Made by a program: the position numbers and the translations under genes. This document shows positions 10,452 to 12,365 of a DNA stretch of 64,000 nucleotides, piece after piece. Origin of the DNA: Bacteroidota bacterium (GTDB lineage Bacteria > Bacteroidota > Bacteroidia > NS11-12g > UBA955); assembly GCA_016868785.1 (NCBI GenBank), contig VGFS01000009.1, positions 1-64,000 of the forward strand. Reading direction: 5' to 3'. Within the stretch, counting starts at the first letter, position 1; each line of letters begins with the position of its first letter. The notes under the pieces are model-generated. The model was given only the letters and a program-made list of their open reading frames with translations. It searched no databases and was not told where the DNA came from.

Positions 10452-12365
10452 TTACGGCAAACGCAAATGCAGTGTTTCCAAGGCTTCAGCCAAACCGGGA
10501 TGTTTTTTCATCAAATACTCCAGCTTTTCTTTGTCGGTATAGGGCCTTCTCTCCTGCACTTCTATTTTACCCACCACGGATTGTATTCCTTGGATATTCA
10601 AATGAGGAATTTGTGTCCGAAGGGCTTGCATCATTTGAGGTCGGATTTCTTCGATGATGGATTCTTGATGGGATGCATTCAGTGTAATCACCAATACATT
10701 GTCTTCCACAGCGTATTTCAACCCTTTCAAACAAGTAAGCACCCGTGAGGTCTGGGGTTGATAAAAGTCGATCCAAAATTCATCCAGCGTTTTGGGTGCT
10801 GATGGCGACATTTGGGCAATTGGCGCTGCCCCAACCATGGTGATTTCTTGCGCAAGCACCGTTTTATTGGATTCAGGCAATACATCCCCCCCATCTGAAG
10901 CAGAATCTGTAACGTCAGTGGACTTTATTGACGCTGCTTTTTTCCTTTTAAATTCTTCAAAACTCCCTACATTCAGTCGGGTTGCAGCCACTTGACTCAC
11001 CTGTTTCGGGTCGGCGGCAACGAAAGATTTTTCTGTCGTATTGGGTGTGTGATTGGATGGCGTAGAATCAGCCTCCTGAGTTTGGGACTGAATGCTCGAT
11101 GATTCAACGGCCAAGGGCTCAATAGAACTGGATATGGACGTAGATTCTTGTACCGGCAAATCAGACGTTGCGCTCACCAAAGACGAGGCAGGAACCTTGG
11201 GTTTATCCTCAACAATTGAAGGTGAACGTTTAAACGTTGCGGGCTTTGGGCTGTCGCTACTCTGCCCTATTTTTTTTTTTACTTCTTCAAGGGAAGGGAT
11301 ACTTTGAATGAAGGAATTCAGATGCCCCAATTTTATGAGCATCAACTCCACCAATAGCCTAGGATTTCGGGATTGCTTGTATTTCTCTTCAGCCTCAGAG
11401 ACAGAATTCAATCCGTTCAAGATGAAGGCGAATGAAAGGACGTTTGCTTGCTCTAAATATTTGGATTTGAACGACTCCGACACATCCAACAGCGATTGTG
11501 TTTTGGTCTCTTTACTCACGGCAAGGTTTCTGAAATGTGCTGCCATTCCACCCAAGAAGGTTAAACCATCGAAACCTTTTTTAATGATTCCGTCGTACAC
11601 CAACAAAGCATTGGCAATATTCGATGAAGCCAACATTGATGTGACATCAAAAAACGTATCTAGATCCAACACGCTCAAAATATCAACCGCTGACTCATAG
11701 GTGATCTTCCCACCGCCAAAGCTCACCAATTGATCGAACATCGACAGGGCATCACGCAGTCCACCATCGGCTTTTCTGGCAATTAAGTGAAGAGCGTCTT
11801 CCGAAGCTTCGATCGATTCTTTTTGGGCGATACCTTTCAGATGCTCTACCATGTCGCGGGTCTCGATGCGATTGAAGTTAAAGACTTGACAACGAGAGAG
11901 GATGGTTGGTAAAATCTTGTGTTTTTCGGTAGTAGCGAGGATAAATATGGCGTAGGACGGGGGCTCTTCCAAAGTTTTCAGAAAAGCACTGAAACCGGCC
12001 GTTGAAAGCATGTGTACCTCGTCAATGATGTACACCTTGTATTTTCCTACTTGGGGCGGAATCCTCACCTGATCAATCAGGTGTCTGATGTCTTCAACCG
12101 AGTTGTTGCTGGCCGCATCCAACTCGAAAATATTGAAAGCATAATCTTGGTTTGGGTCGCCACCGTCTTGTGCGTTAATGACTTTGGCCAAAATCCTGGC
12201 ACAGGTAGTTTTACCAACGCCCCGAGGACCGGTAAACAGAAACGCTTGGGCTAACTTGTTGTTATTGATTTCATGCATCAATGTCTCTGCCACTTGGCGT
12301 TGCCCTATTACATCTTCAAATGTGGTTGGGCGATACTTTCTGGCTGAAACAACAAATTGATCCAT
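10452..12365 (-). CDS. dnaX: DNA polymerase III subunit gamma/tau
   Basis: MDQFVVSARKYRPTTFEDVIGQ..., LFTGPRGVGKTTCARILAK, VYIIDEVHMLSTAGFSAFLKTLEEPP; start trimmed to internal Met at 12365. Confidence 0.95.
   Translation of the reverse strand: MDQFVVSARKYRPTTFEDVIGQRQVAETLMHEINNNKLAQAFLFTGPRGVGKTTCARILAKVINAQDGGDPNQDYAFNIFELDAASNNSVEDIRHLIDQVRIPPQVGKYKVYIIDEVHMLSTAGFSAFLKTLEEPPSYAIFILATTEKHKILPTILSRCQVFNFNRIETRDMVEHLKGIAQKESIEASEDALHLIARKADGGLRDALSMFDQLVSFGGGKITYESAVDILSVLDLDTFFDVTSMLASSNIANALLVYDGIIKKGFDGLTFLGGMAAHFRNLAVSKETKTQSLLDVSESFKSKYLEQANVLSFAFILNGLNSVSEAEEKYKQSRNPRLLVELMLIKLGHLNSFIQSIPSLEEVKKKIGQSSDSPKPATFKRSPSIVEDKPKVPASSLVSATSDLPVQESTSISSSIEPLAVESSSIQSQTQEADSTPSNHTPNTTEKSFVAADPKQVSQVAATRLNVGSFEEFKRKKAASIKSTDVTDSASDGGDVLPESNKTVLAQEITMVGAAPIAQMSPSAPKTLDEFWIDFYQPQTSRVLTCLKGLKYAVEDNVLVITLNASHQESIIEEIRPQMMQALRTQIPHLNIQGIQSVVGKIEVQERRPYTDKEKLEYLMKKHPGLAEALETLHLRLP

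Follow-up and report, generated by a model that had tools for sequence, protein, structure and literature searches.

Does the dnaX gene of this Bacteroidota bacterium yield only the full-length tau subunit of DNA polymerase III or also a shorter gamma-like protein, and, if both, by which route? The gene lies on the minus strand (10455..12365) of the window, by which we mean the whole stretch of 64,000 nucleotides that was analysed, and its coding strand carries an uninterrupted run of eleven As (A11). A first-pass annotation had proposed that tau and gamma are both produced here, by slippage or by ribosomal shifting. Our analysis supports the dual output and, of the two routes, favours the first: the A11 run is very probably a programmed transcriptional slippage site giving tau and a gamma-like protein.

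Results

The window dnaX gene (TIGR02397, PF13177, PF22608 and PF12169; 383.8 bits for TIGR02397 against a cut-off of 250) starts at the ATG at 12365, the same Met at which the alignments of its relatives begin, and ends at the stop codon at 10452-10454, giving a tau-like product of 637 aa. The run, on the minus strand at 11270..11280 (T11 on the plus strand), lies about 57% into the gene, where codons 362-366 and their neighbours read GTA AAA AAA AAA ATA GGG. Upstream, clamp-loader domain III (PF12169, residues 222-355; minus strand, 11301..11702) ends the part common to both products; downstream, the tau-only part (minus strand, 10455..11266) consists of a linker and a conserved C-terminal domain, for which we built a profile from 36 tau tails of genes that need no shift. 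A TAG straight after the run (minus strand, 11267..11269) is read if one A is lost or two are gained, and another (minus strand, 11257..11259) in mRNAs with an extra A or following a -1 ribosomal shift. The computed products are 637 aa (70.2 kDa) for A11, 365 aa (40.6 kDa) for A10 and 369 aa (41.1 kDa) for A12. The first-pass annotation had placed A11 at the same coordinates and given the same lengths for the two short products, and direct reading of the sequence agrees with it. It had put the site 15-20 residues past domain III, which was too far: the distance to V362 is 8 residues from ...SFIQ354 and 7 from where Pfam ends the domain.

Runs of this length are rare around dnaX and in the genome. 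A/T runs in the window drop steeply, from 76 of length 6 and 18 of length 7 to two runners-up of length 8, so that A11 is, as had been noticed earlier, the longest of them. In the whole 2.07-Mb genome, pattern searches found no more than four A/T tracts of at least 10, where a first-order Markov model, admittedly crude, expects about 61; besides the dnaX run, two fall in gaps between the longer open frames, and the last, of A13, overlaps short ORFs. The flanks of the surveyed dnaX loci (806 kb) hold 31 A/T runs of 9 or more, only two of which reach 10.

To place the run in its phylum, we compared 238 dnaX loci, made up of 52 from the organism itself and close relatives, 108 from all parts of the phylum and 78 named records of Bacteroidia (among them Flavobacterium, Pedobacter, Mucilaginibacter, Chitinophaga, Hymenobacter, Chryseobacterium and several Bacteroidales). 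A run of at least nine As was present at the homologous place in 201 of them (A9 in 40, A10 in 142, A11 in 17, A12 and A13 in one each). These runs occur in all three codon phases, and it is therefore the DNA and not the peptide that is conserved, at loci of about 29 to 59% GC. In all 201 genes, exactly one mRNA frame, that of tau, is open for 100 or more codons or to the end of the contig, and the other two stop early. The tau frame is the genomic one in 132 genes, is reached with one A more in 65 (the 'insertion' genes) and with one A fewer, or two more, in four; in 69 relatives, then, the genomic frame ends as gamma and tau lies in another frame. Among the genes that need a shift, our profile recognised the tau C-terminal domain in the shifted frame in 52 of 54 at class level and in 7 of 15 more distant ones, with E-values of 2e-29 to 7e-38 in the four genes whose tau frame lies one A down (or two up). 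Genes that need a shift have thus retained a tau that plain decoding cannot make.

The remaining 37 genes, which include Bacteroidaceae and Prevotellaceae records as well as several deeper clades, have no run, and their distribution takes at least 15 changes on a tree that cannot give the direction of change. Since these genes lack the run, their lineages either can do without the short form or produce it by another route. Five Bacteroidales loci from Bacteroidaceae, Prevotellaceae and Bacteroides records (L209, L212, L217, L224 and L231) have tau in one frame and no run, which suggests that the short form was lost there or is made another way. Unusually long runs turned up in single genomes (A13 in L221, A12 in L042 and A14 in L274) and are either real or assembly errors.

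RNA polymerase slippage causes As to be gained or lost in the mRNA, while a -1 ribosomal shift is only the equivalent of one A more. The position of the stops can consequently separate transcriptional slippage from programmed -1 ribosomal frameshifting at A AAA AAA, in the manner of E. coli dnaX, as the source of gamma. The latter has some points in its favour: the heptamer is found inside the run in every phase, the nearest stops lie in the +1A frame, into which a -1 shift would lead, and the 65 two-frame genes hold tau in that frame. However, stops are also conserved in the frame that it cannot reach. Among the tau-encoding genes, for whose kinship the tests correct only partly, a stop occurs within 10 codons of the run in the -1A frame in 92% of cases (mean of 500 synonymous shuffles 52%, highest 64%) and in the +1A frame in 100% (shuffles 72%, highest 81%). 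The near out-of-frame stops that the first-pass annotation had expected in relatives are thus kept beyond what synonymous shuffling gives. After thinning to less than 75% identity, the excess in the -1A frame persisted (85% vs 50%, highest shuffle 69%); in the smaller, thinned 'insertion' set, the third frame gave a marginal result (96%, with the highest shuffle also at 96%). Furthermore, the four genes with tau only in the -1A frame do not fit a ribosomal shift, and seven As would be enough for one, yet 9 to 11 are retained.

The stimulators of the E. coli site were likewise missing. E. coli dnaX, in which the same gene also gives tau plus gamma, has A AAA AAG, an upstream Shine-Dalgarno sequence and a hairpin (RF00382), none of which occurs in the window dnaX. 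The Rfam model RF00382 matched the E. coli dnaX control and none of the five Bacteroidia loci tried. Folding downstream of the run showed no excess (median -9.1 vs -8.8 kcal/mol further on, p = 0.41), as judged by energies along the genes, shuffle z-scores being uninformative in that the E. coli element itself scores only -0.7. Shine-Dalgarno-like 4-mers at the working spacing, about 10 nt upstream, were found in 5 of 73 genes (0.07 vs a background of 0.05), and the ribosomes of Bacteroidia are blind to such sequences (PMC9976891). The presence of stops in a frame closed to -1 shifting, together with the lack of hairpin or Shine-Dalgarno excess, leads us to favour transcriptional slippage and to regard an E. 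coli-type shift as an improbable source of gamma. A minor ribosomal contribution may nevertheless exist, as A10-A11 always contains A AAA AAA.

Two candidate stimulators were considered and rejected. The 14-bp palindrome AACGTTTAAACGTT (minus strand, 11225..11238), remarked on earlier, does lie 31 nt downstream of the run, but it is present in the window only among 17 family members (absent from all 16 compared with it), and we judge it incidental. GAGG/AGGA words occur within 20 nt upstream at about twice the background (26% vs 11%) in many relatives, for example L002; they sit directly before the run itself, on Glu codons, and probably come from the frequent Glu-Glu-Leu/Val ahead of the lysines.

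The genus of the window organism shows how closely the run is kept. In the window gene and its 14 congeners alike, the run is A10 or A11, tau can be read in the genomic frame up to the limits of each contig, and both alternative frames are closed by a stop; most other members of the family and order have the run too. The codons GTA AAA AAA AAA are found in 14 of the 15, the run of L017 being one position over. Conservation of the run and avoidance of AAG were the signs that the first-pass annotation had said to look for in relatives, and both are there: the three Lys codons are always AAA in the 14 members that share the window's phase. At the other conserved lysines of the gene for which the window uses AAA, 68% of the genus cells also have AAA, and just one such column in 14 is AAA throughout. 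This codon comparison replaces a simple product of AAA codon frequencies, which would be circular, the genes having been picked for their run. An assembly error in run length, which had been named as a possible flaw, is unlikely: A10-A-TAGG of the window corresponds to A10-GTAGG in the close relative L002, which makes the eleventh A a substituted base, not an inserted one, and leaves tau in frame.

These comparisons also bear on the view that the run is a mere lysine-rich linker in an A-rich gene, with no decoding function. The linker is indeed poorly conserved, and AAA is the preferred Lys codon (outside the run, its share in this gene is 75%). Still, the run has no AAG when other conserved AAA lysines stay AAA in only 68-71%, runs exist in all three phases and in loci of up to about 59% GC, and one third of the run-bearing genes have no tau unless shifted, which already refutes the view in its general form; we give it almost no credence for the window gene.

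Which product the genome itself encodes has changed repeatedly. A tree thinned to 98 genes of less than 75% identity requires at least 17 polarity changes, and the full FastTree tree at least 27; both counts come from one part of one protein, for which many deep forks are weak. Dealing the states at random on the thinned tree gave a mean of 21 changes and a lowest value of 17, and polarity therefore carries little more history than chance. The dnaX tree puts the window gene within Bacteroidia, near Flavobacteriales records. In one genus (L249-L276, L063 and L070), the run varies from A9 to A14 and the tau frame is mostly kept through compensating adjacent changes, with exceptions: L250, a single-contig genome, has a run whose length is one A away from its sister's, which makes it gamma-encoding, and in L063, one of the four genes with tau one A down, gamma polarity arose via a 2-nt change beside the run, outside the As. 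Single flips of this kind could be sequencing errors; clade-wide gamma polarity, as in most Flavobacterium records, can hardly be. We lean towards an ancestral, frame-agnostic cassette in the phylum, in which about ten As and stops in two frames would be selected and the genomic frame would be near-neutral, RNA polymerase regenerating all frames; polarity could then flip without loss of either protein. Phase variation, in which replication slippage would toggle cells between tau- and gamma-encoding genomes, could draw on the differences in run length and frame between close species of that A9-to-A14 genus but is highly improbable, frames being stable in many clades, tau being kept in all 15 members of the window's genus and presumably essential, and DNA-level flips being better read as tolerated, with transcription restoring both products.

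Discussion

Transcriptional slippage at the dnaX run would operate as follows. RNA polymerase would realign on A11 and produce mRNAs that vary in their count of As; full-length tau would be translated from those with 11, or with three more or three fewer, and the others would meet a stop within 0-4 codons, giving a gamma-like clamp-loader protein of 365-369 aa that lacks the tau tail. We infer that both proteins are made and used, and the gamma-like short form of about this length, suggested by the first-pass annotation, is supported as a predicted product.

The closest known system is dnaX of Thermus thermophilus, where transcriptional slippage occurs at A9 (Larsen et al., 2000, as cited in PMC1088944 and PMC5009743). 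To judge from those accounts, the window gene shares with it a single tau ORF, a run of at least nine As that separates the clamp-loader domains from the tau tail, and close stops in both non-tau frames, to which the survey adds conservation of the run among homologues; gamma would, as in Thermus, come from mRNAs of other run lengths. The two differ in that Thermus belongs to another phylum and has A9 about seven-eighths along the gene, compared with A11 here (mostly A10 in relatives) about 57% along, and slippage in the window dnaX is predicted from its sequence. Sharma et al. (2013; PMC3711429) proposed slippage for two-ORF poly-A dnaX genes, 17 from 12 genera, of which nine have A10. The gene, the usual run length and the proposed mechanism are the same, and these cases match our 65 'insertion' genes, but the window dnaX is one ORF with tau in the genomic frame, a polarity opposite to theirs and invisible to searches for split genes. 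Poly-A slippage at eleven As is also known from tssM of Citrobacter rodentium, at about 20% and with two length variants, and the tssM genes of C. rodentium and Yersinia pseudotuberculosis have opposite polarity (PMC4256274); that is another gene, and a case of single species rather than of a phylum.

Sites that yield a shorter product are hard to judge comparatively, according to Baranov et al. (2005; PMC1088944). Our survey gets round this difficulty at the level of sequence comparison, as the putative site is known by a conserved run, stops in both non-tau frames and sister genes of opposite polarity. The slippage mechanism was already known; what is new, as far as the literature searched goes, is phylum-wide conservation with labile polarity. 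The importance of gamma outside E. coli has been little studied, and the fact that an essential gene has kept a rare, error-prone sequence across a phylum is strong evidence for it. The natural polarity flips provide matched gene pairs for testing the role of gamma, and the genus with A9 to A14 a natural series relating slippage to run length. Automatic annotation will label many of these dnaX genes, though intact, as truncated or frameshifted.

A Pfam search of the two minus-strand ORFs (118 and 63 aa) that overlap the A13 tract mentioned above gave no match; this tract, at G000:C1:117194-117206 (L165), is the sole A tract in the genome longer than the A11 of dnaX.
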